DNA of 64,000 nucleotides, taken from assembly GCF_037975245.1 (NCBI RefSeq), contig NC_092567.1, positions 1,358,714 to 1,422,713 on the forward strand. The letters run 5' to 3'. The DNA comes from Apostichopus japonicus (lineage: Eukaryota > Echinodermata > Holothuroidea > Aspidochirotida > Stichopodidae). Position numbers and translations under genes: made by a program. How positions within the stretch are numbered: position 1 is the stretch's first letter; each line of letters begins with the position of its first letter. The notes under the pieces were generated by a model. It saw only the letters and a program-made list of their open reading frames with translations. It had not been told where the DNA came from and did no database searches. Shown here piece by piece: positions 4,420 through 64,000 of the stretch.

Positions 4420-6931
4420 GAGTAGGTCGGCGTCTATCTTGGCGCAGAGTGCTCTATGTCCATTGGACAGAGCGTAATATATGTTGATACTAGATGAGAC
4501 TAGTGGAACACTAGTAGTTGTTACTCGGAGTTTCACGCGTTATAGCGATCTTCAGAGCGATCTTCAGCGATCTTCAGAGTTGTCTGAAGATCGCTATAAC
4601 GCGTGAAACTCCGAGTAACAACTACTAGTGTTCCACTAGTCTCATCTAGTATCAACATATATATATATATATATATATAGTTTGTTTTAAATTTTAATTC
4701 TTATTTATATGGATAGACACAAATCGTATCGAGTGGGACGGGCATTTTTGGAACCTTAGTATCTCAGCAACAGCATTTTACAGATGTGAAGACGGTAAAT
4801 ATACTAATTTATTGTAATTTATATTCAAAGGTAGTTTCAAATTAACGTTAAAAAACAAAAGAAATATATTACGACGATTAAGGAAACAAAAGCATTACTC
4901 ATAAATGTTAATAATGCTCGTTTGAATTTGGAATAGAATAATCTTTAGAATAGCTTCTTCTACAATGCTTACATTGGTTAGTTATATAATAAACAATGAT
5001 TGGATCGTATAAGACTTTAAATAATTCACGGGGTCATGCTATATTTAGGCAATTACGATATGCATGTTTTAGCAAAATACTTTCAACACGGTTTTGTTGT
5101 CGCAGCGTTGACAAAGACGCGTTCCTTTGTTAATATAACCCATAATTGGAAGTTTTCAGCGGTATTCGTTCCTTCAGTTAATCGTGAAACTACATTTGCT
5201 AAGCACTGACATTATCAACTGATCTTCAGTATGGGATAAATTTACAGATTATACAAAACACACAGTGGAATCGATACAATGTAACACGAGGTAGTTGTCT
5301 ACGACAGAGCGCCAAATTATATAAATGGTGATTCTCCTTACCGATACTAAAAGCCATTTAATTCTCCAAAATATCGGCCGCTACATGTGGTATCACAATC
5401 ATCTTCAGTGCACGCATTACTTACCTTGCATATATCACATAGCAAACTATAAACGACCCTGATTTGCTGTAAAGATCAATAAACAGTGTGTACTTAGACT
5501 TGCAGTGTGAACACAGTTCGACCAGTTCAAGCACGAGTACGAGTATGAGGACATTATCTATTTTTGTAAGGAAGGGATGAACTCGCAAGTACCCGTACGT
5601 TTTCTACACCAAATATTGGGGTCAACCGTCGGGGTAACCAATTTAGCACTATTCGCCTACAACAGTTAATACACTATAAATAATATCCCTATGTACAGAA
5701 CATATATATGGATGAGATAAAAATAAACTATATATACACAACTGATGTTAAGGTTATTATGTATATGATAAACTACAAAAAAGCGGAACGATTCATACAA
5801 GCTAGAGAAGAAATAAATTATGTTTAGAATCAAATGTGTGGATCACTGTTGAAAGGATTTGAGTAAACGTTAGGTCAAATTAATTAAAAACAAACAATAT
5901 CGCCATCAAAACATTTATTGCTAAACCTCGCAAACAATACCATTGCTATGATTTTGTTTTGTTAACCAGAGGTTCACCCTGATGAGCAACCTGGATTCTC
6001 ACGCTATCCGAAGTTGTGCTGTTTACGCGTTGCTGACACCAGTGAGAAAGTAAAGTGGCATAAAAACAACATCAACGTTGAAAGCGGTGACCATGTTGCT
6101 TGGCTCAACACCCTCGGCGGGTACTGGCATCATGCAATTGTAAAGGAGGTTTTAACTGGAGCCGAACCAAAAATAACTGTAATTGAGTGGTCTCGAAATG
6201 GTAGCACTTTTAAAATAAAAGAAGGGACTTTCAGTGAAGGTGACTGGCTTTCTCTTCGACGACCGATGTACAAAATTTTGTACCCAAGGACAGTTCTGAA
6301 TGAAAATCCAAGTACCATTGTTTTGAGAAGGGCAGTATCTTGCATGTCAAAACAAGATAGTTATAACCTAGTGACCAATAATTGTGAACACTTTGCAAGG
6401 TACTGTAAGACTGGGACGGGCTACAGCCACCAGGTGTTGCAAGGCTATGGCACATTAACTGTTTGGGCCATCCGAATTTTCCTAGATTTATTGAAATTAA
6501 TTGCATTTGTATTTTTCTCTGAAGTAGTAGAATCTTACACCAGTTGGTCATTTGAACAAGTTAGTATATTGATAATATTCGCTTTTGAATTTATTTACCT
6601 AATAGTGGCCGTGCATGTTATTGTTTTCAGAGATGAAAAATTGTCAACTTTACCGAAGGGTCAATACTGCTTTCCTATCGGTTGTGCAATTGGTAGATTA
6701 GCGGCCCGATCGGCAATTATATGGTTTTTCGCTAGCTTGTTTATGATTTATATTCCCCCATTGTTTGGTGAAATAGCAGATTGGGAGGAAATATTGGTGA
6801 GTACAGCTTTTGGTTTTTTAGGTGGTATAATAGGTGTTCTGGTATCTTACATTGCATTTTATTTAACACCATGTTGTATGTGTTATCATGAAAGAGGTAT
6901 AATTCAGAAAAAAGATGAAATAAGTGTATAA
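1..6931 (+). CDS. LRAT-domain multi-pass membrane protein with acidic exon-encoded repeats (5' partial, spliced)
   Basis: Proposed exons, all joined through phase-1 introns: 1-56 (cut by the window edge), 229-339, 512-622, 796-906, 1080-1190, 1363-1473, 1647-1757, 1930-2046, 3324-3401 and terminal exon 5970-6931. Candidate extra exons are 2768-2886 and 4717-4794. The exons end in G before gtaa, and the last exon opens with AG (acceptor AG at 5968-5969), so every junction stays in frame. The N-terminal part is a hydrophilic Asn/Asp/Glu/Ser-rich repeat. The last exon carries an LRAT-type (NlpC/P60 superfamily) domain and about four hydrophobic helices. LRAT/PLAAT relatives are acyltransferases or phospholipases acting on membrane lipids; that activity is inferred here. 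An ATTAAA lies at 7080. The true start lies left of the window. The exon chain is my reconstruction and needs RNA evidence; the terminal exon is the most secure part. Confidence 0.72.
2453..2570 (+). pseudogene. Decayed copy of the repeat exon
   Basis: Remnants of the exon end and donor (acttccgagggtaaat near 2460-2475) lie just before a degraded exon front (aatgaacagcgacgacttgg near 2501-2520). The latter keeps the N-S-D-D-L-E-T-E-I-N-D-T-V-G-S reading but then hits TAA. The normal acceptor is gone. It looks like a dead unit of the tandem exon array. Not included in the gene model. Confidence 0.5.
2768..2886 (+). CDS. Possible extra exon of the LRAT-TM gene
   Basis: After a tatcttag acceptor the phase-1 frame reads LTSESSNNLQNDTMNTTK and continues to SPPISQSELNK, similar in composition to the array exons. 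Its end resembles the next exon's GQSEIKK. The donor is the weak aaa|gttaaat instead of gaag|gtaa, and using it ends the exon in phase 0, so inclusion would break the frame unless another donor is used. It may be a dead or poorly used exon. Confidence 0.3.
3324..3401 (+). CDS. Acidic 78-nt exon of the LRAT-TM gene
   Basis: Acceptor aatgcttcag and donor aaag|gtaaatcag bound a 78-nt exon that begins and ends in phase 1 (KRTDADDNDNSDAKRCPTG, then QSEIKK). Length, phase and Asp/Asn richness match the upstream array, so it is probably a diverged member that precedes the LRAT exon. Confidence 0.55.
3402..4380. other. Intronic/non-coding stretch
   Basis: AT-rich sequence with no convincing exon, RNA gene or mobile element. 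It contains a short GAAA-rich tract near 3930-3945. Confidence 0.5.
4380..4417. repeat. (TA)n microsatellite
   Basis: Near-pure alternating AT, flanking the left side of a perfect inverted repeat; a matching (TA)n tract lies at 4655-4678. Confidence 0.9.
4479..4660. repeat. Perfect 77-bp inverted repeat (hairpin)
   Basis: The left arm 4479-4555 and right arm 4584-4660 are exact reverse complements over 77 bp, separated by a 28-nt spacer that itself repeats gcgatcttcag. The structure is bracketed by (TA)n tracts. It would extrude a long cruciform or, if transcribed within the intron, a long hairpin RNA. It is most likely a foldback/MITE-type element inserted in a TA repeat. Confidence 0.92.
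4717..4794 (+). CDS. Candidate Ig-like mini-exon, phase 1-1
   Basis: A T-rich tract and atggatag acceptor precede 78 nt that end at gaagacg|gtaaat. The phase-1 frame reads IEWDGHFWNLSISATAFYRC followed by ED, which resembles the last strands of an Ig domain (W...L-x-I...Y-x-C). It would splice in frame between 3324-3401 and 5970-6931. A 26-codon fragment is too short for certainty. Confidence 0.33.
4795..5969. other. Intron upstream of the LRAT exon, nothing recognised
   Basis: AT-rich, no long open frame and no recognisable repeat; it ends in a gttttgttaaccag acceptor. Confidence 0.5.
5970..6931 (+). CDS. Terminal exon: LRAT domain plus four predicted TM helices
   Basis: The frame is open from acceptor AG at 5968-5969 to TAA at 6929-6931. 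Numbering residues from the TTG at 6014, there is a G-D-H turn at 25-27, the family's catalytic-type His in WHHAIV (H40), and the nucleophile motif NNCEHFARYC with Cys124. This is the standard order for LRAT, PLAAT and FAM84-type proteins. Hydrophobic segments follow at roughly 148-168, 183-205, 233-250 and 262-284, then a Cys-rich juxtamembrane stretch (TPCCMCYHE) that could be lipid-modified, and a short basic/acidic tail. PLAAT enzymes usually have one C-terminal membrane anchor, so four helices is unusual. There is no good ATG at the front of the exon, which supports its being an internal/terminal exon spliced to upstream coding sequence. Confidence 0.85.
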
Positions 6932-13521: not shown

Positions 13522-13579
13522 ATGTCGGGGACAGTACCAGTGCCAGCTGAGACTTCATCTACAACTCATGGTGGACATC
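13522..13579 (+). CDS. Start exon of death-fold/LRAT gene
   Basis: Encodes MSGTVPVPAETSSTTHGGH, then the first base of Gln, before donor c|gtaagt (strong consensus). The leader is Ser/Thr-rich, without a signal peptide, so the product is probably cytosolic. Confidence 0.7.
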
Positions 13580-16500
13580 GTAAGTGACTTATTAGTTAGA
13601 AGATCTGTTTAATGAAGAATTCTTTATGTACCAATTATATATTAGAGCATAACTTTCTTTCTTTTTGCTAAATATTATGCAACGATATGATATTCTCCAC
13701 TTCTTGCTTGTTAAGTTTAAACTGTACATTTTGAAAATAAAACAATGAATCTCTAAGAACACTGGTTAAAATCTATATTGTAATATATAATGGATAAGCT
13801 CAAAATTCATTTTCCAAGTTGGAATTCTATTGTGTTTTTGAAAATTGACAGTGTTTGAAATATTATTAATTTTGAAACATTTTATTTGTACATTAATGCT
13901 GTTACTTTTTAAGAAACGCACGAAGATGGAGACAAATCGCAACGGCATCCTTCTGAACAGTTAAGTCATGGTAAGCTAGATCCAAATTGTTTTGTTCTCA
14001 AGAATTTGACATGTTATCACTTGTCTCAAACCCCGAACAGCACTTATAACCTTCCTGTCTGTCATTGGAATGTAAACATATGAAAAGTTTAAAGGTATAC
14101 AATTATACTAATGTACCACAAAATAAAAATTGATATCTATGTATGCCTATCTACAGCAGTAATAATGGATCCTACTTTACAACGGTGTTCAAAATATCGC
14201 GAAATCTCTCAAATCTTAAAACAAGATTGTTATCTGAACAACAACAAATATTTAGATTCTTATGCTCTGTAATACCGTAAATGAAAATAAAAGAACCACT
14301 GTTAAATGTCTTTGTAAGATTTTTTGATAGTCTGTTACAGTATAAACATATTTCAGAACTATGTTTAAATACAATTTGGATGCACAATTCCAAAGCTGAA
14401 GATTTTCTTGTTCGCCTTAAAATGATGGTTCTTTATTATTATTACAACTCTATAACAAAACAATTGGAAACTATTTTACAAATATTTTTAAATTCATGCA
14501 AATTATGAAGTGCCGAGATAACTTATTGATCCTCTGATTGTCAATTGCTCGTTACTCTCCATATACAGAAGGTTGGGCTGAATTCCTTGGTAAAATGGCG
14601 GACGAAATAGACCGTAAGACTGCGCAGTCACTTGCAACAATTTACCAGTTTTCAACAGCGGAAATTGAAGAAGAAATGCGTCCTGGTTACGTATTTACGA
14701 GAATGGTGGTTACGAAGGGTCATATCACTCCTAGTGACATTAGTTCTCTCTTGGAGAATCTAAGGAAAGTAGGTGGCAAAGGTCATGAGAGTAAAATAGA
14801 AGACCATTTTCAACGCGCTATGAAATCTTCCACAACCGTTGAAAGACGTGACGGTGAGTATTACATATACGATTCAAAGGAATGTGAACAATCTGAGTTA
14901 TAAAATTTGTTATAAAAACGAGATACGATAGGAAACAATATGCTTCATAATCACGGTAAAGCAACATAACGATTGTTCGACAATAATAGAAAATGCGCTA
15001 ACCTTTTTGGTTTCCATACCAAGCGTTCTTTAATTGCCTATTTGACAGATTACGGAGAATTAAAAGTGAATTTAATAAAAAGACTGGACCGTGCGACCCA
15101 TACAACGCAAATTCTCGCAATATACTTTGACATCCCACCTTGGACGTTGGGCCAATTACAGAAGGATCCCTCTCCGGGTTGCGTATTGGTCACGTATCTT
15201 GAGGAGATCCGTGTAATGTCCAAAGAGAACTCCAAAGAAGTGATCACCGCTTTGGAAAACATTGGTGCGACAGACATACTCAAGGAAACATTTGAACAAG
15301 ACCTGCGGAGTGAGGATGGTAACCTTCAAGGGGAAACTGACGGTACGTCACACAGTCACACAGTCACATAGTCACATATGATTTTCCAAGGGTATCATAC
15401 CATCATGTTCATTTCTTTGTGTGCGCTTGTGTGTTTTTCATTAGTCACATGTTCTTTTCATCATTGCTGAAACTGCATTTAAGTTAATTATGCTGATACA
15501 TACTGCACATTTGTTCTATGCAAATGTCTATTGGACTGAATCACTTCTCTGGTTAATATTAAGCATAAAATGATATTCCTATGTATTTATATTATCCTCT
15601 AAACTTCTCTGAGCATGTAAGCCGTTGTTACACCTATCATTCTTAATCATAGATCATTTATGCTTGTTCCAGTTATTCAATTTGTTACCAGTTTATATGA
15701 AATAAATAATTACCTTCAAGCGAGATACCTGCCTGAAACAGTAGAGTGAGTATAAAAATAGCTTTTCTATGTTTTTTGTTTAAAGTTTGCATCTAAGCCT
15801 CTCCTTTGTTAGATAAATATTCATTTTAGGATTAATCTTTCTTGTAAACCAAAAAAAGTTCCACATGTATCAGGAACGTACAACAATCGTATTTATCTCC
15901 TCGTGTTATTTCATGCAAGTAGTAAATTAACCACCGTAATTTATCTGAACGGTTGCTTATTCATTCTTGCAGAGAGAAATCCAAACGTTACTTCTACGGT
16001 GCAGATAGAGGACCCTCATAGCGTTGCGTCGACTCAAAAAACCATTATTAACAGTGTTAATAGCAGCATCAACTCTGGTATAACGATAGTGAGTATTTTA
16101 TCAAAGGGAAGGGGGACACCCCCTCCCCACTGAAAATGTTTTGCATTTCCAGGTGGACTTGGATGCAATTTGGTGCTCCAAATGATGTTTTTGTTTCTCA
16201 TTTGGAAATGAAAAAGGGGTTTTCTGACTTGCGAAGCGGTCGGGCGGAATGATACTTCCACCCCTCTTTATTTTTCACTGGGGAGCTGGCGCCCCCAGCC
16301 CCCGGTTCCTTCGTCCTTGGAATAAACAATACGAATAAACTGACCTTGCTCTAACCCAGTTTCTCTTCATTTTCATCATGTCATTATAATTGCGGTAAGC
16401 CTACATTACATAGATATGTGATGTACCGACTCAACTTACGCAAATGATAATCAACTTCAGTAATCATTCATACGTGATATATCGAGTTGAAGAGATTGTT

Positions 16501-18538
16501 TATTATGTACAATGAAAGTTTGACAGCCGCGTTGAATTAACTGACTAAGCGCATGGTGGACCGATTCACACAAAGATTACAGTAACTACTTTGAAACTTA
16601 AAGTATTGTAACACAGTAAAAACTGGATCTTGCTGATATATATGATAAATCGTTGGCATATGTCATTATGTTTACAATAAGAACTGAGAATATATGTAAT
16701 TCCAGCAAACGCATCAAACTGCATTTGTTGGAATTACACATATTCCCATATTTACTGTTCTCTGTGTGCATCGGAAACCATCAATGATAAATTATACTTT
16801 AAGTGAGTACCTGTTAGTTTCACAATTCCGTTGGACTAAGCAGTACTTAGTGTGTAAGATTCACTAGTAATTTAAATTTAGTGAGCTTGAGTCATGTAAA
16901 ACAAAATTGTTCTTCTAATCTTTTCTTTTTAAAAAAAAACAGTGGTTTAAGTTATTCCAGTAGTATTTCAGAAGCACATATAATGTACAACAATTTCAAA
17001 ATATGTGTCACGGTATGATTTTTCTTTCCATTCATTAGTTAACTTAACTAAATTTGTTTCTTACTTTCTAGACGGAACAGTCTCCCAAGTTTGAAATCCT
17101 TCAAAGCAGGCCTAAAGAAGATACATGTGTTTGTAATACTGGCGACTCCCGCAGATTCAGAAAATATTACTTAAATAAAAGTGTTGTAGGAGCTATTTGT
17201 AAGACGTGCGGAAAGGAATGGTTACAGAAAATGTTCCTTAGAGACCTCGCCACTACGCGAGAGATATCTGTTGATGGTCAACCGCTTTGTCTTCGAAGAT
17301 GTTCCATTAATATTTCAGAATCTTTGCCCAGCGAGAATGACGGAGATTGTTCAACATTCAAAGTAGGCGATCTCATTAAATGGAAATCAGATGAACACCA
17401 TCAAAACTTAAATGCTATTATAGAATCTATTGACACGGACGAAAACGTGTCGCTTATTGTCATTGAAGCGTCCCACTTTGGTCAAATTAAGATTTATAGA
17501 GAAGACAATTGTCTATCAAAATTTAACGATTTACATGCCATTACTTATGAGAGAAATGGCGAAGTACCAGACTTACCAGATTTGGTAAGGGCACGGGCGC
17601 TTGCATGGTGCACTGGTGATTCATACATTTCCAACATATTCCTTACTGAAACCATGAGGTTTATAAAGTACTGTAAGTTTGGTTCAGATTTGCAATGGAG
17701 GGTGATGGGGCATGTAGGTGAGGTAGTTACAAATGCACTAAAGAACACGCTAGGTTCTACATGGGTTACTGGAAGAGAGGAAAAAGATCCTTTCTCATCG
17801 GATAGAAAGTATTTTGCACCAGATGTTCATTCTGGAATCTATATTATAATTGCCGATTCAGCATTCACATTTCAGCTCAACGAGCGTGACACACACACAA
17901 CAACAGAACAAAACCTGTTTAGGTCATTTTGTACAAATTTCTCAAAATGTTTGTCTTACCACAACTTCCTGGTTTATGAGATGCTCTCTGAAAGACCATG
18001 GGCAGAGGAAAACTGGTATGTCAAACTGCGTCTAACGGATATGGTCGTCCCAATTCTGATCAAAAGTATTGAACAAGAAACCCAATCTCCTCGAACTTCT
18101 TTTAACCCTCTTGCATCAGTTGTCGGCCATGCTATTCATTTGACAATGAAAAAGACCGACGAAGAAGTCCAACTTAATGAATTACTACCCGGTGATCATA
18201 TAGTCACCTCACATACTACTCTCCATCCTCGCTGTCACGCCATCGTTGCTTCCGTAAACCTACAAATGGGACAATTAGGATTAATTCGTAATGTTTTCCC
18301 TGGCCGTATCGTGGAAAGAGTAGAGAAAGTTTCACCTCCAATTTTACGTGTAGTTTACAACAAAAGTGACATCTGTTCTCCAGATGAAGTCATCCAAAAG
18401 GCTAGATCTGAACATGCTAGAAAAAAACATTTATACTACAATATTCTGACGAACAATTGTAAACATTTTGCTGTTTGGTGTAAACGCAAAACGGATGAAA
18501 CTAGTAAATCGCGCTCTGAGAGTAATGAGTCTCCCTGA
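13522..18538 (+). CDS. Tandem death-fold (DED-like) protein with degenerate and intact LRAT domains
   Basis: Six coding exons join without a stop into 758 residues: 13522-13579, 13914-13970, 14569-14853, 15049-15342, 15973-16088 and 17072-18538. All have AG acceptors and GT donors. The first four introns are phase 1, the last is phase 0. ATG 13522 (caatcATGTCG) begins a 19-residue leader before the first donor; no upstream in-frame ATG fits better. Order: death folds about 39-134 and 134-232, low-complexity linker 232-270, C-x-C...C-x2-C knuckle (289, 291, 313, 316), degenerate LRAT about 365-470, linker, intact LRAT about 640-740 with His659 and Cys733. Death-effector domains recruit caspase-type or adaptor complexes in animals; LRAT/PLAAT domains act on lipid acyl groups. 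Joining them suggests signal-recruited membrane-lipid chemistry in immunity or cell death (inference). A possible 5'UTR exon uses donor 13150 and acceptor 13490. Confidence 0.84.
13914..13970 (+). CDS. Small linker exon, phase 1-1
   Basis: A 57-nt exon between tttttaag and catg|gtaagc, encoding THEDGDKSQRHPSEQLSH. It is symmetric (phase 1-1), like the repeated exons of the neighbouring LRAT gene. Confidence 0.62.
14569..14853 (+). CDS. Death-fold (DED-like) domain 1 exon
   Basis: A 285-nt phase 1-1 exon encodes one complete six-helix-sized domain. Helix 1 is GWAEFLGKMADEI; the last helices read HITPSDISSLLENLRKVGGK and ESKIEDHFQRA, matching the DED pattern of L-x2-L...G-x-hydrophobic-(T/S)-P-x-(D/N)-hydrophobic-x2-L-x2-hydrophobic-L-x2-hydrophobic-G. 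The RxDL motif typical of DEDs is not clear. A death domain is the main alternative. Confidence 0.68.
15049..15342 (+). CDS. Death-fold (DED-like) domain 2 exon
   Basis: A 294-nt phase 1-1 exon encodes a second helical domain (GELKVNLIKRL at the front; KEVITALENIGATDILKETF at the end). G-A-T-D-I-L stands where DEDs have RxDL. Each domain occupies exactly one symmetric exon, consistent with duplication or shuffling of a single death-fold exon. Similarity between the two copies is low by eye, so the duplication would be old. Confidence 0.62.
15973..16088 (+). CDS. Linker exon with phase-changing donor
   Basis: Begins after cattcttgcag and reads RNPNVTSTVQIEDPHSVAST and on to INSGITI. Two donors exist: ctctg|gtataa at 16077 (phase 1) and acgata|gtgagt at 16088 (phase 0, near-perfect consensus). 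Only 16088 joins in frame to the final exon at 17072. Confidence 0.7.
16105..16318 (-). mobile_element. Short dispersed element in the last intron (copy of the 37325-37690 family)
   Basis: This is the reverse complement of the nested element at 37325-37690, sharing ggggacaccccctcccc, the block tttggtgctccaaatg, gaaaaaggggttttctgac and the G/C-rich end ggcgcccccagcccccgg. It begins only 16 nt after the 16088 donor. It looks 5'-shortened, and no clear target duplication is visible. Confidence 0.72.
17072..18538 (+). CDS. Terminal exon: zinc-knuckle-like motif, pseudo-LRAT and active-type LRAT
   Basis: Acceptor tttcttactttctag precedes an uninterrupted 1467-nt frame to TGA. It starts 53 codons before the first ATG (17231). 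Those 53 codons hold C-V-C and C-K-T-C, a possible zinc site. The first LRAT-like unit keeps VGDLIKWK (from 17366) and ends FIKYCKFG. Aligned to the second unit, the catalytic His is Asn (17411-17413) and the nucleophile Cys is Thr (17651-17653), with the following His replaced by Arg. The second unit has PGDHIV (from 18188), CHAIVAS (His at 18236) and NNCKHFAVWCK (Cys at 18458). An ATTAAA lies at 18804. Confidence 0.86.
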   Translation, partial: TEQSPKFEILQSRPKEDTCVCNTGDSRRFRKYYLNKSVVGAICKTCGKEWLQKMFLRDLATTREISVDGQPLCLRRCSINISESLPSENDGDCSTFKVGDLIKWKSDEHHQNLNAIIESIDTDENVSLIVIEASHFGQIKIYREDNCLSKFNDLHAITYERNGEVPDLPDLVRARALAWCTGDSYISNIFLTETMRFIKYCKFGSDLQWRVMGHVGEVVTNALKNTLGSTWVTGREEKDPFSSDRKYFAPDVHSGIYIIIADSAFTFQLNERDTHTTTEQNLFRSFCTNFSKCLSYHNFLVYEMLSERPWAEENWYVKLRLTDMVVPILIKSIEQETQSPRTSFNPLASVVGHAIHLTMKKTDEEVQLNELLPGDHIVTSHTTLHPRCHAIVASVNLQMGQLGLIRNVFPGRIVERVEKVSPPILRVVYNKSDICSPDEVIQKARSEHARKKHLYYNILTNNCKHFAVWCKRKTDETSKSRSESNESP

Positions 18539-45486: not shown

Positions 45487-47235
45487 GAACATGAGAACTA
45501 TAGAAACATTCTTTGTAACACAACAGTCACTAAAGTTTTATTTTTAGATTTTTCAAGTGCTTTTAATATGGTTTTACCAAATCGGTTAATCCAAGGTTTG
45601 TGTAGTTTTATCGATGAGCCAGGGCTTATACACTGGTTGGCTAATTTTTTACAAGGATGGTCCCGACAAGTCAAGCTACAGAAAGGTTACTCAGAGGAAT
45701 CAAATATTACAGTGGGAGTCCCCCAGGGAGGTCCTCTTTCTGCGTTACTTTTGACAATATACACAGATGATATACGTTCTTCTCTGGGGTGTAATGTAAT
45801 TAAGTACGCTGATGATACAGCTATATCCCGTAACATTTCAAAACGGAAACACCTTGAAAATCAAAATGACTATAAATCATGTATTGATAAAATGGTCAAT
45901 TTGTGTGAGCAGAAGGACCTCTTACTTAATCCTAAGAAATCTAAAGAAATAATTTTTGAAAACATTAACATTAAACATCAAGGTCTCATTCAGACCAGGG
46001 ATCAGGAAACTTATGTTCAAGGCTCCATCGTGGAGCGGGTAACTTATACTATATACTTAGGAGTTGATATTGACTGCCAAACTTATCTTCAAGCAAACTA
46101 AGGTTACACATGTTACCCCTCTCCTTAAAGCATTACACTGGCTTCCAATTGAAACGCGTATACATTACAAAGTCCTTATTATAATCCACAATTGTATTTA
46201 TAATCATTTATCTCCAAACTACCTTTCAGAACTTCTAAAAGTAAAGCAATACAAGCGTGCCACCCGTCAGTCAAAATGTATTACCCTTCCTAAACCTAGG
46301 ACCAATGGGGTTACTTATGCCAACCGTGCTTTTTCAGTTTCCTGGTCCCAAATTGTGGAATTCCCTCCCAAACCATTTAAAATGTGTACCTAATTAATCA
46401 CTTTTCAAATCAAAACTAAAAACCTTCCTCTATGCTAAACATTTTTCAATTTGATTTGTAACTATATTTCATTGTTGCATTATTATTTTTGCTTTTCGTT
46501 CTATTCATATTTATATGTATGGCGCTTTTGATAACTATTTTGTTTATAATTAGCGCATGATAAATCTTAGTTATTATTATTATTATATTGACGCCAAGTT
46601 AACCTTTACTAAACATATATCTAAAACGATGTCTAAGGTGTATTATATTGTATCAACGTTGGCATACATTACTCCTTATTTTCATTCTAATGTAAGAGAT
46701 GAGGTTTTTAACTCATCAATTCTGCCAGTTGTCGTGTATGCAGTTCCTGTCTGGTATCACCTTCTACTTGAAAAGGACAAGACAAGAATCAGAAGTTTCT
46801 TGAAGTACTGCTCAAATATATTTAATCTCGACTATGAAAGCCTTGTTGGTAAAGTAAACACTTCTGCTAAAAATGAATTCATAAGACTAGCTAAGAATAT
46901 ACATAGTTCTAAAGATCACCCACTTCACTCCGAGTTGATCTCTCTGTGCAATAAAACCAACAAGTACAATCTAAGTAATCCTACTATCTTGCCATCTTTT
47001 AGAATTATGCTTTTTAAGAACTCATTTATCTACAGAGCAGCCATTTATATTCGAAATGGGTTCTTAGAATCTCTGTTATAATCCTTTTAATCTTTAAAAC
47101 TTCTAATCCTCCATCTTATTTCTCTTTTTTTTGTTAATGCTTTCATGTTTGTACATGTTTACGTCTATTATGTATCATTCTTATGTGTCCTATTTATAAA
47201 TTTTATAGTTTATACTGGAATAAAGAAAAATGGAA
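45487..47235 (+). mobile_element. 5'-truncated non-LTR retrotransposon with reverse transcriptase, split by a nested LINE
   Basis: The frame from about 45487 contains RT motif A (FLDFSSAF), the GVPQGGPLSALLL block and the catalytic YADDTAIS at about 45806-45829. It continues to YLGVDID at 46056-46074, stops at an insertion, and resumes at 46593 in the original frame with AKLTFTKHISKTMSKVYYI and PVVVYAVPVW to a stop at 47081. A short 3' region ends aataaagaaaaatgg. The usual F-D after motif A is F-N here. The upstream half of the element is absent. Confidence 0.82.
46075..46584 (+). mobile_element. Nested 510-bp CR1-like LINE 3' end with 8-bp target duplication
   Basis: ATATTGAC is duplicated at 46067-46074 and 46585-46592. 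The insert begins with a frame reading VTPLLKALHWLPIETRIHYK and continues to LSPNYLSELLKV, the conserved C-terminal end of CR1-like LINE ORF2. It finishes in a (TTA)n tail, the usual 3' end of such elements. Removing it rejoins the host frame exactly. Confidence 0.88.
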
Positions 47236-47679: not shown

Positions 47680-48936
47680 TTATAAAACTGTAATTTCGTC
47701 ATCTTCAAGATCGTCTTGCTTTTCTACAGACTTTTTCTGGTTCGAGGTTTCAGAAAAGGCCAAATAGAGCGGGTTATCTTGCATTTCTGTGTCTTTCGAA
47801 ATAACTTCAGTTTTCACATCATCCTGGTTTGAAATGGGAATATCCTGCACATTTTGGTAAAGACGCAATTTAACTATGATAACGACTAAGACGAAAGTAA
47901 TTACTCCCAACACTGTAGTACATGTTATCAACACAACACTAACTGACTTAAAATCAGACGGAGATGGCACTGTTTCCTGTTGGCCAACATCACGACGCGC
48001 AACAGCAACCACGTGGGCCCGAGTGTCGTAAGATGAACATTTAACTGTATGAATACCATTACCACCTATTACTGCTTCAGCTAATCTGAGGCTACTTTCA
48101 CCAGCAGTTTGTTTAATGGTTACGTTCAAGCTCGCCTTCATCGTGTGGGTTAGCTCGTTGAAGTTCATTATGTTACCATTGGCTCCAATGATTGTCCAGT
48201 ACGTCAATCGAGGAGGCAGACTTTTACAGACAAAAGTCAAGTCCTCCAAATCTTCGTCAGTGAAGTTATCGGGTGAAATAGCAACTTCCAGCTCTCTTAA
48301 AATCTGCATAGGCGACGTGTGTTCATTTGAACAACCTAATTGAGTAAAGTTATAGGGAAGTGTAACCTCGTGGAATGAAAAAAATATCCCCTTTTTGTTT
48401 TGCACGTTTCTAACGCAAGTGATTAGAACATTTTCTCCGTAATATCCCAATTCACCAACACTAGACATTACAGGATCGTAGCGAGTGTCTATTTTAGTTA
48501 TATTTACAGTAGTTTCTGATTCGAACAAAATCATCACGACTCCTGTAGAACTGGATGTTTTCCTTGACTCGAATCTTTGACGACAAGTGAACATTCCAAG
48601 GGGATCAATCTTTGTAGCAGTCTTGCTTATCCTGTTTTCTAAAATTTCCTCAGCTTCAATCTCGTCCGAATGGTTACGAAAGAGTGTCAGATTGGAAGGA
48701 AATGGTAAAAGAGAAACGCAAGTAATCCTTACCTCGGGGTTATTCCGTTGCTTCGAACCACGCAAGACGTAATTCCTGACCCCGTTTACTATGCGCTTGA
48801 TACCAACGTTGACGTCCAGTGTTATTTGGCCATGGGATGGCACAGTGACTACAGTTAACAGGTTAAGCAAGAGCAGAGTGCAGATAATGCGATTGTTAGC
48901 TGATCTATCCATCATAGGTCTGTATGAAGCGAACAT
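47680..48936 (-). CDS. Single-exon Ig-like single-pass membrane receptor (paralogue A)
   Basis: A 418-residue intronless frame. ATG 48936 is followed by a second candidate start pair (MM at 48915/48912) directly before a signal-peptide-like stretch (ICTLLLLNLLTVVTV). The ectodomain has Cys73-Cys118, a middle region with Cys174 and Cys202, and a clear Ig pattern with Cys237, Trp247 and Cys300 (SSYD after the last Cys). N-glycosylation sequons occur near 82, 88, 145, 196, 224 and 271. A TM helix spans about 334-355, then a 62-residue acidic tail with NPLYLAF at 388-394, a possible NPxY or tyrosine sorting/signalling motif. Relatives lie at 55900-57117 and 63648 onward. Function is probably recognition or adhesion; immunity is a guess from the paralogue cluster. 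Confidence 0.86.
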   Translation of the reverse strand: MFASYRPMMDRSANNRIICTLLLLNLLTVVTVPSHGQITLDVNVGIKRIVNGVRNYVLRGSKQRNNPEVRITCVSLLPFPSNLTLFRNHSDEIEAEEILENRISKTATKIDPLGMFTCRQRFESRKTSSSTGVVMILFESETTVNITKIDTRYDPVMSSVGELGYYGENVLITCVRNVQNKKGIFFSFHEVTLPYNFTQLGCSNEHTSPMQILRELEVAISPDNFTDEDLEDLTFVCKSLPPRLTYWTIIGANGNIMNFNELTHTMKASLNVTIKQTAGESSLRLAEAVIGGNGIHTVKCSSYDTRAHVVAVARRDVGQQETVPSPSDFKSVSVVLITCTTVLGVITFVLVVIIVKLRLYQNVQDIPISNQDDVKTEVISKDTEMQDNPLYLAFSETSNQKKSVEKQDDLEDDEITVL

Positions 48937-51900
48937 ATTACTCTATCTTTACACAGTGTCAATGGTTCACTAACGATGATATCAAGGAACTGTAACAACG
49001 TATGACATATCCTGTCCTCAATAGTTAAAGTTCAAACTTGTTTATTAAAGCATCATAAGTATAAAGACGTTTCCGTAGACTCACCTATATTTTCATAATT
49101 CAAACGATTGTTTATAATCAGTTTAACCGTGTTCATGTGGTGCTCATGAGTACGCATACACTTAGTGAACCACTCTTTTAATCCTCCAACAAATTTTCGT
49201 CTAATCAATGTAAATTTTGAAGTAAACGGATATGAGAACAAATCCAACTTTTTCGACTGTCAATAAATCATAAAGTCCGAGGTATTAATGTCTTCTTATC
49301 AGAATGCATGTGCTTACGGAATGTTACAACTGATGCAGAATTTGAGAAATCATTATCCATAATACATGTGTATAATTCCAAACAAGATTTCTATGAACGA
49401 GTTTGGGTTGATAAAGAACATGCAGCCAATAGTAGGCCTATGTTGATATCAGTATATTGAAAACGGTCAACAATCATGCACATATGCCGAAATTTTATCG
49501 AAGTTGATTTTGATTGTAGCTCGCTTTAACTCTGTATGTATTGCAATACTATTTGTATAAATTAACAGTGGTGCATGTTGGTACATGTTGAAACCAACAA
49601 CATTACATCTAATTGTTTATCATGTTTGTAGTCTTAGGGTTCCATTTGCAGCAGAACATCCTACCTTATCCCAAACATCACCCCTTTCTCACCACCGTAT
49701 CACAGTGGCACGAGATCGATAGCGGCAAACCCAACCTTTCCCAAGTAACCTTAGTAAATGAAATCTTCTTTTCCTAGCATCTTAAGACAAATACAAATAA
49801 GACGATTAGTGAGAAAGAGACCGTGAACAACCAGTTTAAATCTACATAGCGCTTTAAAGATGTTGAAACACAAACACCGGCATCATAATGCACATATCAC
49901 ATGTTAAAAACCCGGTTCAGCCATTATGGAGATGGATGTGTATACAACTACTAATAGGCTAACAATGTCTTCATTGATGTTAATTGGCCAAGCAATACAC
50001 AAACGTGATACTTGTAACTGTCGATCAAAGTGAGAGTAAAACCTGACACGTATGATTTTTGGGGGGAGCATTACTTTTTTTTCGGAAATTAGGAATTGCT
50101 ATAATTTAGATTTCCCCCTCCCTGTGATAGGATCCCCATACAAATTCGTGATGCTCATTGAGTTCAATGACCTGTCAATTCCTTGCAGGAAGTTGATATA
50201 TGACTATGCCTTTATTCTTGGGATCACATTGCTTTTTCCTCCATGTGTACCAAGAAGAGTAAACCACTGCTTACCCCATACGTCAACAGATACAGTACCA
50301 AAGCTCTCCCAGACGATGGGGGTCTTCCAAAAACAGGTGCCCTTTGTGTTCACCTCTCTGTCTATGAGACCCTTTTTCAAGGACTTTGTCCCAAAGTTGT
50401 TTCTTAGTGATTGTTTAATAATGTTGATGTTTCCAGATAATGAGTTAACAGATCAGCTATCAGCTATGGGGTTCATTTATTTTCCTCATTTGGGCTGGGC
50501 AGGAAGTTGTATTAGGATAATTTCACCTGGCTCTATACAAGAAGGCGACAAAATTGTGAGACATTTAAAAACTAGAATTTGGGATCACAAAAAACTATAA
50601 GATGTATGCTCAAAATTACACGTGGAAGCTACTTTTCAAATAATTTCAAACTAAGTTCTGCTTAAATGATATGCGATAGCAGCTATAATACATGTTAAAT
50701 AGTATAATCATAATTTTGCATTTCAGCGTCAGGTCATAGTGTCCAGCACATGAATTCGAAGGTAGTTGGTGGTGGGGTCGAGGGGGGGGGGGTGGAGAGA
50801 GCCGAGCAGTGGGAGTATATTCAAAATTTCCAATTTCGAATGAATTTATATAGGAGAGGAGCTGACCTGGGGTTATTGAAGCCGAATTCTATGAGCACTT
50901 TATTGGCAGCTGTAAGTGCGAGATTGTGCTGACTGAAAATTCCCCGGCTAAGTTAGTCAATAAGCTGAATCTTTATGGGAGTTCCAGCTGCGAATGAAGT
51001 AATTTGCAAAGGAGGGGGTGCTGCTCTAGGGTCATTGAAGCCATTTCTGTAATATGCTGAAAATTCACACACACAGTGGATTTGTTTTGCTTTATATATT
51101 TGTTTGTTTTCGAAAAGGATTTATGATAACAGGAAAACTGTCTGAGTGACATTTCTTGAGAAATCGAGTTTAATCATTAACTTGCTATGCAACGCCAAAA
51201 GCCCGATCTACAAATTTTGAGTAGGAAACTCCAATCAAAGCTAGGAAACCTATGCAAGTATTTAGCTACTGATTCAACAACGAGATGAGATTTATAACAA
51301 CTAACACGTAAAGCAAGTATATAACATAATATACTCCACACAATTCTGCCACTTCCACTGTGGTTATCACATTGTATCTTTGTACTGTCTAACGTGGAGT
51401 ATATACTGTGCAATTCTGACAAAATTTTGCTTGTATGGTTAAGTACGGCTATCCTTGTTGTTTGTCTCCGAATACGGAATTAAGTTAACCACGTTGTTTT
51501 TAACGTTCGATCCTTCAGGTAGGTTTATCGCCAATATCGTTAATTATGAGTATGACGAAATGGTACTCGCCTTTGTATTACTATGTACAAATTTATGAGT
51601 TTATGATCGAGTAAACAACAAGTACCACTAACATGTAATATTTGAGGGTCAGTTCCCTTAGCTTCAGGAGTAACACCCAGAAACTCGATCGTTCTTGTCA
51701 TCTTGATGTGGTTCTTGTGAATCCTTGGTATCTACGTACGTAACGTCGTTGATTCGAACTCCTTTTACCGAACTGCTTAGAATGGCAGTGCTCTAATGTT
51801 GTTGACCTAATGTGTGCGTGCGTTGTTTGTATATCCATCGTTTTTGCAAATTTGTGTTTTTGCGTAACTGGGTGTGCGTAGTTTAAGCCAGAAAACACTG

Positions 51901-55319: not shown

Positions 55320-55930
55320 CACAGTATAGATTATTCATACAGAAAGCTGGTATAGTCTGTGAGTATAGCATGGCGATATCTTGTGTACTAAATAACTATA
55401 ACAAGACATGTATTGTAGAGACAAATGACGTCATTGGACTTAATGATAGCCCTCAAACCTCATCTTTCAATGTTAATTTGCATACAACAGATATTATTAC
55501 ACAGTGGGCTAAGCATATTGGCTATTTCGTAAGAGGCATGTATATGGGCCTATATGAGGGTAAATCCTGACTTCTCTCCCTCTCTACATATCTCTCTAAC
55601 TTCTCCCAGTGTTGGTCTGTATCCATGTATGACTGTTTTCCGTCCTGATGGGAGGCCTCATCATATGTCTCTGTGCGTTGAAACGCAGAATGGAATATGA
55701 TGTCATTCATGTACCACCTTCAATGTTCCAATATGCATAAACATCGGTTTGAAGCCCTTGACGTTGGGTTATTCATTTGTGAAATTTGACGTCATCTGCT
55801 TTATATTATAATACCATTACATGTTGATCTATGTTAACATGCATCTCTCTTCCTCTTTTTCTGCTGTTCCTTTATCCAATGAAGAACGATCTACCACATT
55901 TAAATATTGTGTAAGTCTATGTCACGTGAT
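55320..55930. repeat. Duplicated 3' flank of the receptor pseudogene (copy 1)
   Basis: Shares agaaagctggt(a/t)tagtctgtgag, gacaaatgacgtcattggac and gaagaacgatctaccacatt with 62940-63620. It lies just downstream (minus strand) of paralogue C, as the other copy lies downstream of paralogue D, so the genes were duplicated with their flanks. Confidence 0.85.
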
Positions 55931-57117
55931 GTCTGTGACGCATGATTGTTGGTGGCTCGCTTTAACTTTCCACATAAGAGGATTAGAACGATGATTATAA
56001 TACAGACAATATACGTCAAAGTAACAATGAATGCTATTAAGATAGCGTAGGTTGTTTCCGTAGTTGCCTCCGTTGAATCATTTAGCGTAACAGTTGTTTT
56101 CACATCATTGTCTTCTGTGACTACTCTGTGTGACGTAACATTCACCTGTGCCAATGTATCATAGGAAGAGCACCTCACTTCCTGTATATCATTACCACCA
56201 GGAGATGCTTCTATAATGTTTAGTATAGTCTCTCCTGGTCTCTGAGTTATGGTGGTATTTATGCTTACCTTGATGACATCATTGGAACTATAGTCGAGAA
56301 TGTCACCATTGGCTGTTATAATAGTCCAGCGCATCAAACGAGGTGGATCACTGGTGCAACGAAACTCCATTGATGCAGCGTTACTTGTAAAATTGGAGGG
56401 TGTCAATGAAAGTTGCAGTTGATTAGTTATGTTTAAGTTGAGAGATAGTGATACACAGTCCTGATAGATGTTTCTTAAATTGATGAAAGGATTTTCTATA
56501 CTTAAATAATATCCCCATTTGCACCTGACGATCCTCTGACTATTGCTAGGAACATGGGTCATTGATGTTGATGACAGCTTTGGTTGAAATTTGCATTTCG
56601 AGTAAAATATATCTACCTCGGTACAGGTTATTGATATCTGTTCACCAGCATAAACCCTCGAACCAACGCTCGTAGAGATGAACTGCTCTTCTGGAACAAA
56701 TTCAACTTCAACTTCACTGTTAATGGTGGTGCGAATTCGTATTTTGTCTAGGAGATAACTTTTGTCAAATAAAGCACGAAAAGTATATTTCTCTGTTCCG
56801 GCACTCACTGTGGATAATCTGTTTGACCACATAATGTTATACATATTACTGTCATCTACATTAATCGCGTGGAGTATTTGACGATTTTTCAAGATAAATA
56901 CCTCTTCAGGACGAACGAAAGCATAATTCAGTGCACATTTGATCAATCTGTTCCGTGAATCAGATCCAACAGCAGTTTATTGCCATACCCCTGATTTGAC
57001 AACGTTACTCCCTTGTACCTGTACGTCTATGGTAGCCACTATTCCTTCCGCAAAGGGACAAATGAGACAAAAAGTCAAACTGAAAAGAATCCCAACATTA
57101 GTAAGAAAGCCGGCCGT
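55900..57117 (-). pseudogene. Ig-like receptor pseudogene (paralogue C)
   Basis: A 348-codon frame (56946-55900) has the family ectodomain (TSDPPRLMRWTI...VRCSSYD), a TM helix and a short tail. The same frame extends upstream through an in-frame TAA (minus strand, 56979-56977) into a signal-peptide-like stretch (GILFSLTFCLICPFAEG) and TIDVQVQGSNVVKSGV. It starts at ACG (57117-57115) in an ACC-ACG-G context where an ATG would be expected. The cytoplasmic tail ends after RDIDLHNI and lacks the NPxY region seen in A and D because of a net 174-bp deletion. Start loss, nonsense codon and tail loss together indicate a dead copy. A spliced bypass of the stop is unlikely: the candidate 41-bp intron would be too short and out of frame. 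Confidence 0.82.
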
Positions 57118-63647: not shown

Positions 63648-64000
63648 TTAAATGTTGATATATGTACATGTATCAGTTTGCTCTTCGTCGTTGGGGTTGT
63701 AAACATCATTTGTTTCCGAGTAGGACATATAAACCGGATTGTGGTGTAACTCTGTTGCTGAGGGTGCTTCCATACTGCAATCGTTGTCATGTGATGTCGG
63801 CGGCGCATGATGGATGGTGGCTCGCTCTAACTTTCTACATAAGATGATTAGAACGACAATTAAAATAGAGACAATAGATGTCAAGGTAACAGTAATTGCT
63901 ATAAAGATAGCGTACGTTGTTCCCGTAGTTGACTGAAAGTTTAGACGTTGTGCTTCGGAGCTCTTTGACTCGTTACAATCATTAGGGGAACCAGTCACCA
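63648..64000 (-). CDS. Ig-like receptor paralogue D, C-terminal part (runs off the window)
   Basis: The frame enters from the right edge and ends at 63648. It contains a TM helix (YAIFIAITVTLTSIVSILIV onward), a basic stop-transfer CRKLERA matching CGKLKRA in paralogue C, and a roughly 60-residue tail with NPVYMSYSETND, then a terminal TYINI. NPVY-x-(S)-Y-S-E-T matches NPLYLAFSET of paralogue A, so the tail is conserved in the family. Several tyrosines could be phosphorylated or act as sorting signals. The ectodomain lies outside the window. Confidence 0.78.
   Translation of the reverse strand, partial: VTGSPNDCNESKSSEAQRLNFQSTTGTTYAIFIAITVTLTSIVSILIVVLIILCRKLERATIHHAPPTSHDNDCSMEAPSATELHHNPVYMSYSETNDVYNPNDEEQTDTCTYINI

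Follow-up and report, generated by a model that had tools for sequence, protein, structure and literature searches.

Fusions of a death-fold adaptor to an effector are already known as a kind. In caspase-8 and c-FLIP, whose biology we take as general background, two tandem death folds stand ahead of an enzyme or pseudoenzyme module, and to our knowledge animal death-fold platforms chiefly drive caspases, kinases and pore formers. Here we describe gene A, located at positions 13522 to 18538 (+) of a stretch of 64,000 nucleotides from the sea cucumber Apostichopus japonicus (contig NC_092567.1, here C7, positions 1358714-1422713; hereafter the window), whose predicted product likewise carries two tandem death folds, followed not by a caspase but by a Cys knuckle and two LRAT-fold domains, LRAT-a and LRAT-b. 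The nearest published idea that we found comes from bacteria, in which Death-like domains occur in fusions, some of them to alpha/beta-hydrolases tied to membrane-lipid hydrolysis (PMC8195603). Like gene A, these fusions join a death-like adaptor to a lipid-acting effector, putative in our case; they are, however, prokaryotic and use another hydrolase fold, and the words "LRAT" and "NlpC" occur 0 times in the text of that paper. No paper describing the combination of LRAT with a death effector domain (DED) or death domain (DD) was found in the open literature library searched, in agreement with an earlier note on this stretch, which knew of no named family with this domain order; what would be new is the LRAT module in a death-fold adaptor-effector fusion. 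With PLAAT/HRASLS and LRAT enzymes (PF04970), LRAT-b of gene A shares the LRAT domain and its NC nucleophile motif. PLAATs combine a Cys-His-His/Asn triad with a membrane segment at the C-terminus, whereas LRAT-b has Cys in the column of the catalytic His and Arg as third residue, and the gene A product combines two attached death folds with no transmembrane-like stretch (KD19 maximum 1.02 over 758 residues). With the NLR genes of the same genome, gene A shares the type of death-fold exon and the phase-1 acceptor, but in those genes a NACHT domain follows, whereas the Pfam scan of the gene A protein returned no NACHT and the LRAT pair takes the C-terminal place.

As the earlier note had proposed, six exons join in frame into 758 residues, with GT-AG at every intron. 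A close paralogue, gene B, serves as comparison in the following list of features, given in window positions:

13522..13579 (+): exon 1, start ATG, phase 1 out, N-terminal tail; supported by GT-AG and frame, 98% identical to the paralogue
13914..13970 (+): exon 2, 57 nucleotides, phase 1-1; supported by frame, 86% identical to the paralogue
14569..14853 (+): exon 3, phase 1-1, death-fold domain 1 of NLR type, residues ~39-133
15049..15342 (+): exon 4, phase 1-1, death-fold domain 2, residues ~134-231
15973..16088 (+): exon 5, linker, residues 232-270, weakly constrained (dN/dS 1.7, few sites)
17072..18538 (+): exon 6, knuckle, LRAT-a, linker, LRAT-b and stop; Pfam LRAT at E 2.4e-6 (residues 700-742) and matches within the same genome
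17117..17296 (+): Cys knuckle, residues ~286-345, with C289, C291, C313 and C316 in a seven-sequence alignment
17348..17686 (+): LRAT-a, residues ~363-475, degenerate
18179..18481 (+): LRAT-b, residues ~640-740, non-canonical, with H655, C658, H659, R676 and C733

One may wonder whether the model wrongly merges two neighbouring genes, one with exons 1-5 and the other with exon 6. Exon 6 of gene B opens with ATG, and in one relative on contig C10 an ATG stands a few residues ahead of the knuckle, so that knuckle-LRAT-LRAT proteins may stand alone elsewhere. In gene A, however, exon 6 starts with ACG at the codon where gene B keeps ATG, and its first Met codon is residue 324, past the knuckle cysteines 289-316; the knuckle of gene A would thus be translatable only from the upstream exons. 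Furthermore, every splice phase matches and the exon set is identical in genes A and B. Such a chimera seems to us very improbable, and gene A is, as read from its sequence, one real gene with six exons; the earlier claim of one complete gene finds support in the reading frame, the GT-AG introns and a six-exon paralogue with an open frame.

In the 671.58 Mb assembly (35 contigs), which is the genome referred to throughout, gene B lies at C7:1336881-1341834, on the same strand and ~35 kb upstream of gene A, and has the same six exons and splice phases with an open frame of 760 residues. Identity between both genes is 86-98% in exons and 80-92% in introns. The two exonic indels (9 and 3 bases) are multiples of three, against 5 of the 24 intronic ones, a pattern of coding type as judged from this alignment. 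The ratio of non-synonymous to synonymous substitution rates (dN/dS) is 0.52 overall and varies by part: 0.63 for death fold 1, 0.28 for death fold 2, 0.35 for the knuckle region, 0.47 for LRAT-a with the following linker, 0.55 for LRAT-b and 1.7 for the few sites of exon 5. It is worth noting that intron 4 is 92% identical, as compared with 80-83% for introns 1, 2 and 5, and that identity drops to 57% over the 600 bases after the stop; a gene conversion or the edge of the duplication is possible.

Taken together, the comparisons support a six-helix death-fold domain in each of exons 3 and 4. A hidden Markov model (HMM) built from 17 other DEDs of the same genome ranked these exons of genes A and B first to fourth among 1532 open reading frames. 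To obtain its members, 28 of the 45 Pfam DED matches were fetched and 11 near-duplicates dropped; 12 of the 17 exceed the Pfam cut-off (one only with its neighbours) and 5 fall under it, with E up to 4.7e-4. A second HMM, made of six NLR-type domains, likewise put the same four exons in the top four places, at 54.2, 52.0, 21.9 and 17.3 bits (55.2, 53.0, 23.1 and 18.5 bits by another count), while the best shuffled sequences reached 6.5 bits for exon 3 and 9.6 bits for exon 4 (2000 shuffles per exon, scores listed for 1725 and 1878 of them); for exon 3 this score is circular, since the six members had been found with it, whereas exon 4 is free of this problem. In a separate shuffle run (scores listed for 1680 and 1838) the margin of exon 4 was narrow, 10.4 bits versus 9.7 for the best shuffle. 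The predicted models of exons 3 and 4 have six helices each, and death folds make up rows 1-16 of 22 (exon 3) and 27/28 (exon 4) of the VIA structure rows, one design on template 1cy5, which we take to be a CARD, being counted in each. Neither exon is among the 45 DED (PF01335) matches of the genome at E<=0.001, and Pfam and NCBIfam scans run exon by exon yielded nothing usable as a death fold; exon 4 weakly matched the bacterial Death-like domain bDLD3 (E 0.063). A PDB sequence search with the death-fold pair returned one row, which we judged to be chance. The RxDL motif is typical of DEDs; by eye it seems to be missing from exon 3, and exon 4 has part of it, as GATDIL, a possible further difference from caspase-8 and c-FLIP. 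The best case of the NLR-type domain scores 18.5 bits with Pfam Death and 16.9 bits with Pfam DED, both below cut-off, and 2 of the 4 tested matched neither; "death fold, DED/DD-like" is for this reason the safe name.

The closest kin of exons 3 and 4, by sequence comparison, are exons preceding NACHT domains in the same genome. Exon 3 as query found 61 genome places at E<=1, mainly on C16, C22 and C12, and exon 4 found 21, 13 of the 19 beyond genes A and B being exon 3 places as well. An open frame for NACHT follows on the same strand, within 0.4 to ~5 kb, in 6 of the 8 loci examined (L077, L079, L081, L082, L083 and L084), and L080 shows no long NACHT-type frame within 6 kb. The acceptor AG is followed by two bases and then a conserved Phe-Gly in all 10 printed exons of the NLR type (11 asked); the acceptor of exon 4 agrees in phase and position (AT-TAC-GGA, compared with AT-TTT-GGC in L077), and that of exon 3 has the same phase one codon further out. 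Both exons being symmetric (phase 1-1), they can shuffle without breaking the frame. This kinship would make the link to immune receptors stronger than the earlier note could know. The best relative of death fold 1 beyond genes A and B, L078 on the minus strand, has a RING-type frame downstream and no NACHT within 6 kb. The NACHT set of the genome is large, with 106 scored of 488 candidates, chiefly on contigs C7, C12 and C16.

Pfam LRAT (PF04970) matches gene A over residues 700-742 with 28.3 bits against a cut-off of 24.3 (E 2.4e-6) and gene B with 27.9 bits; a PDB sequence search with exon 6 alone gave one row, judged to be chance. LRAT-a matches a model of ten ordinary LRAT domains of the same genome (LRAT-1, a hand-chosen sample) with 34.6 bits (E 4.1e-12 in a set of four) and has L383, V400 and T464 at the catalytic columns, where gene B has L, V and I. 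The first LRAT domain is accordingly degenerate, as the earlier note had it, and predicted to be catalytically dead. For LRAT-b, a profile of nine LRAT-b and three LRAT-1 domains found PLAAT/LRAT chains only, 9/9 at E<=1, over the C-terminal half; the LRAT-1 profile gave nine PLAAT/LRAT rows, plus two Listeria LntA and two PPPDE rows (E 0.06-0.53). The nucleophile C733 lies in the NC motif, and this Cys and the preceding Asn are present in all 16 second-domain copies counted, out of 23 distinct ones. The column of the catalytic His (strand beta2, two residues before Ala/Gly-Ile) holds Cys in 16/16 LRAT-b against His in 10/10 LRAT-1; in gene A it is occupied by C658, and H659 comes one residue later. 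This next residue is His in 16/16, and H655 is also invariant. At the third triad column LRAT-b has R in 14 and K in 2 of 16 (R676 in gene A), whereas LRAT-1 has E in 8 and H in 2 of 10. The register of the His column is set mainly by the His that all ten LRAT-1 domains share, because only one very weak PLAAT stretch (-3.3 bits), aligning the LRAT-1 His to His23 of 2kyt_A, covers the beta2 His; two of the ten (on C2) have His in that column alone. Since H-x-x-C-H and NC occur in every counted copy, the pattern is not the decay of one gene: the second LRAT domains (L006, L022 and 14 others) form, as aligned here, a conserved subgroup with an altered active site, and by the same columns neither LRAT domain of gene A has a standard one.

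The residues His659 and Cys733 named by the earlier note thus exist at those numbers, but the former does not occupy the catalytic-His column, and the description of LRAT-b as intact or of active type was dropped on the column count, the nucleophile being kept while C658 and R676 stand at the two other positions. The same columns bear on the reading originally put forward, that LRAT-b is an ordinary PLAAT-type phospholipase/acyltransferase brought to membranes by death-fold complexes. The exclusive PLAAT/LRAT matches of the mixed profile and the retained NC motif would fit it, as would the report that recruiting truncated PLAAT3 to an organelle suffices to deform that organelle (PMC9338259); the published triad, however, is Cys113-His23-His35, with Asn replacing the last His in PLAAT1 (PMC4624172 and PMC10102619), as opposed to Cys in the His column, His659 one residue later and Arg676 in LRAT-b. 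Lipid acylation or hydrolysis by LRAT-b cannot be assumed on account of this Cys and Arg, and we consider ordinary PLAAT chemistry improbable here.

The non-canonical active site of LRAT-b makes a decoy or ligand-binding role a serious rival: gene A would be a silent regulator, whose death folds cap or buffer NLR/death-fold assemblies, much as c-FLIP acts on caspase-8, and whose LRAT-fold domains only bind lipid or partners. LRAT-a, dead by its catalytic columns in both genes, the missing canonical His and third residue of LRAT-b and the absence of a transmembrane-like stretch from the gene A product are in line with such a role. Yet H655, C658, H659 and C733 are kept in all 16 second-domain copies, the aligned ones of which go as low as 29% identity to gene A; this is more than a mere scaffold would need. 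On balance we find a silent decoy unlikely, if somewhat less so than ordinary PLAAT chemistry.

With roughly an even chance of being right in our view, it is tempting to hypothesize that exon shuffling put NLR-type death folds on a knuckle-LRAT-LRAT protein and thereby produced a soluble, recruitable effector or adaptor for NLR-type receptors. Two phase 1-1 death-fold exons of the type preceding NACHT would have been inserted upstream of an older knuckle-LRAT-LRAT gene, and the translated product would be soluble and probably cytosolic. Because it combines NLR-type death folds with no membrane segment, it is best read as recruited by NLR-type receptors. Death folds (DED, CARD, PYD) assemble by like-with-like contact; an activated NLR-type receptor or another death-fold platform might nucleate both death folds in this way, and the resulting oligomer would display both LRAT domains at their target, a membrane or a lipid. 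In this oligomer LRAT-a would be a pseudoenzyme, probably a scaffold or ligand binder, and LRAT-b (Cys733; H655-x-x-C658-H659, R676) an enzyme whose chemistry has changed or else a domain that binds a ligand or a metal. Published cases offer precedents by analogy, not tests, of this mechanism: truncated PLAAT3, chemically recruited to mitochondria, causes activity-dependent deformation, ruptured outer membranes being observed (PMC9338259); an antimicrobial effector role downstream of IRF1 and interferons has been described for PLAAT4 (PMC10102619); and an LRAT-annotated gene is among the 15 most induced in amphioxus after poly(I:C) (PMC5752451).

Several points weigh against a recruited effector or adaptor. 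Pfam DED (PF01335) has no match on exons 3 and 4 (in a scan up to E 10, with filters that remove most of the weak hits), their models are of low confidence (pLDDT 45-52) and the Foldseek E-values of these models are 0.31 or worse. The HMM searches suggested by the earlier note thus gave LRAT over the Pfam cut-off and a positive in-genome DED model beside a silent Pfam DED, and the suggested structure prediction of residues 39-232 gave six helices per domain, as expected of a death fold, with the weaknesses just named; of the two DED-like domains, the death fold holds by HMM rank and models, and each may be of DED or DD type. The Cys and Arg/Lys columns of LRAT-b argue against ordinary PLAAT chemistry, and the overall dN/dS between genes A and B indicates only moderate constraint. 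Scanning 30 kb at the two C10 relatives turned up no death-fold exon, so that the fusion may be confined to the A/B pair. An A. japonicus NLR studied by experiment is a receptor in the membrane, its NACHT domain lying outside the cell and an Ig domain being present as well (PMC13133943), and we came across no study in which NLRs of this species recruit partners through death folds. What the sequence of gene A shows is its exon structure, its domains, the kinship of its death folds and the lost or changed catalytic residues; translation, cellular location, recruitment by NLRs, action at membranes and the direction in which exons were shuffled are inferred.

Were gene A a recruited effector or adaptor, NLR-type death folds on an LRAT module would give a different output from those of known animal platforms and suggest a new link between immune sensing and the chemistry of membranes; a cultured echinoderm rich in NACHT matches would allow a direct test. 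A bolder idea, which we hold to be rather doubtful as a whole, is an inflammasome-like sea cucumber pathway in which NLRs recruit, via matching death folds, an LRAT-fold effector whose H-x-x-C-H...C would be a new active-site variant of the NlpC/P60-like superfamily, performing lipid, acyl-thiol or redox chemistry at membranes and not caspase activation. Independently of this pathway, an LRAT subgroup with Cys for the expected His implies that LRAT/PLAAT names given by similarity in such genomes should not be taken to imply function.

Regarding the knuckle, the earlier note was right that there is one; its cysteines are C289, C291, C313 and C316, and the columns of the last three are invariant in the seven aligned sequences, gene A included. 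In Pfam it reaches Zn_ribbon_8 at E 0.053, below cut-off. A derivation from the zinc domain of RIG-I-like receptors was rejected as too weak, the profile of seven knuckles reaching a Zn-ribbon protein (E 0.16) ahead of MDA5 (E 0.25); we keep this faint RIG-I-like/MDA5 echo as a possible lead only.

Within the wider family (40 PF04970 matches in the genome), a knuckle and two LRAT domains occur in one open frame in several genes, on C10, at 19.58 and 19.60 Mb of C7 and at 17.5-17.7 Mb of C5. The two C10 relatives are 37% and 31% identical to gene A in exon 6; of their first LRAT domains, one is degenerate in all three catalytic columns (F, S, S) and the other keeps the His and an aligned Cys without the preceding Asn (H, S, C). 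The death-fold scan of other double-LRAT genes covered, besides C10, those at C7 19.58, C7 19.60 and C5 17.66 Mb, upstream of which no death-fold exon was found in 14.5 kb in all. Frames at C7 19.6 Mb and on C5 and C2 contain stretches of KD19 1.7-2.4 versus the maximum of 1.02 in gene A. Between genes B and A, window positions 5966-6928 (+) hold a single LRAT frame (Pfam LRAT E 2e-9) whose HH and NC motifs are ordinary and whose C-terminal half is strongly hydrophobic (KD19 2.69).

Elsewhere in the window, the frame at 45487-46098 (+) is a reverse transcriptase fragment (Pfam RVT_1 E 6.5e-16), with neighbouring frames to 47078. The frames at 47683-48942 (-) and 55903-56976 (-), which had no Pfam match over cut-off when these two were scanned, and the one at 63651-63998 (-) are alike by eye, resemble type I membrane proteins and are possibly a tandem receptor family.

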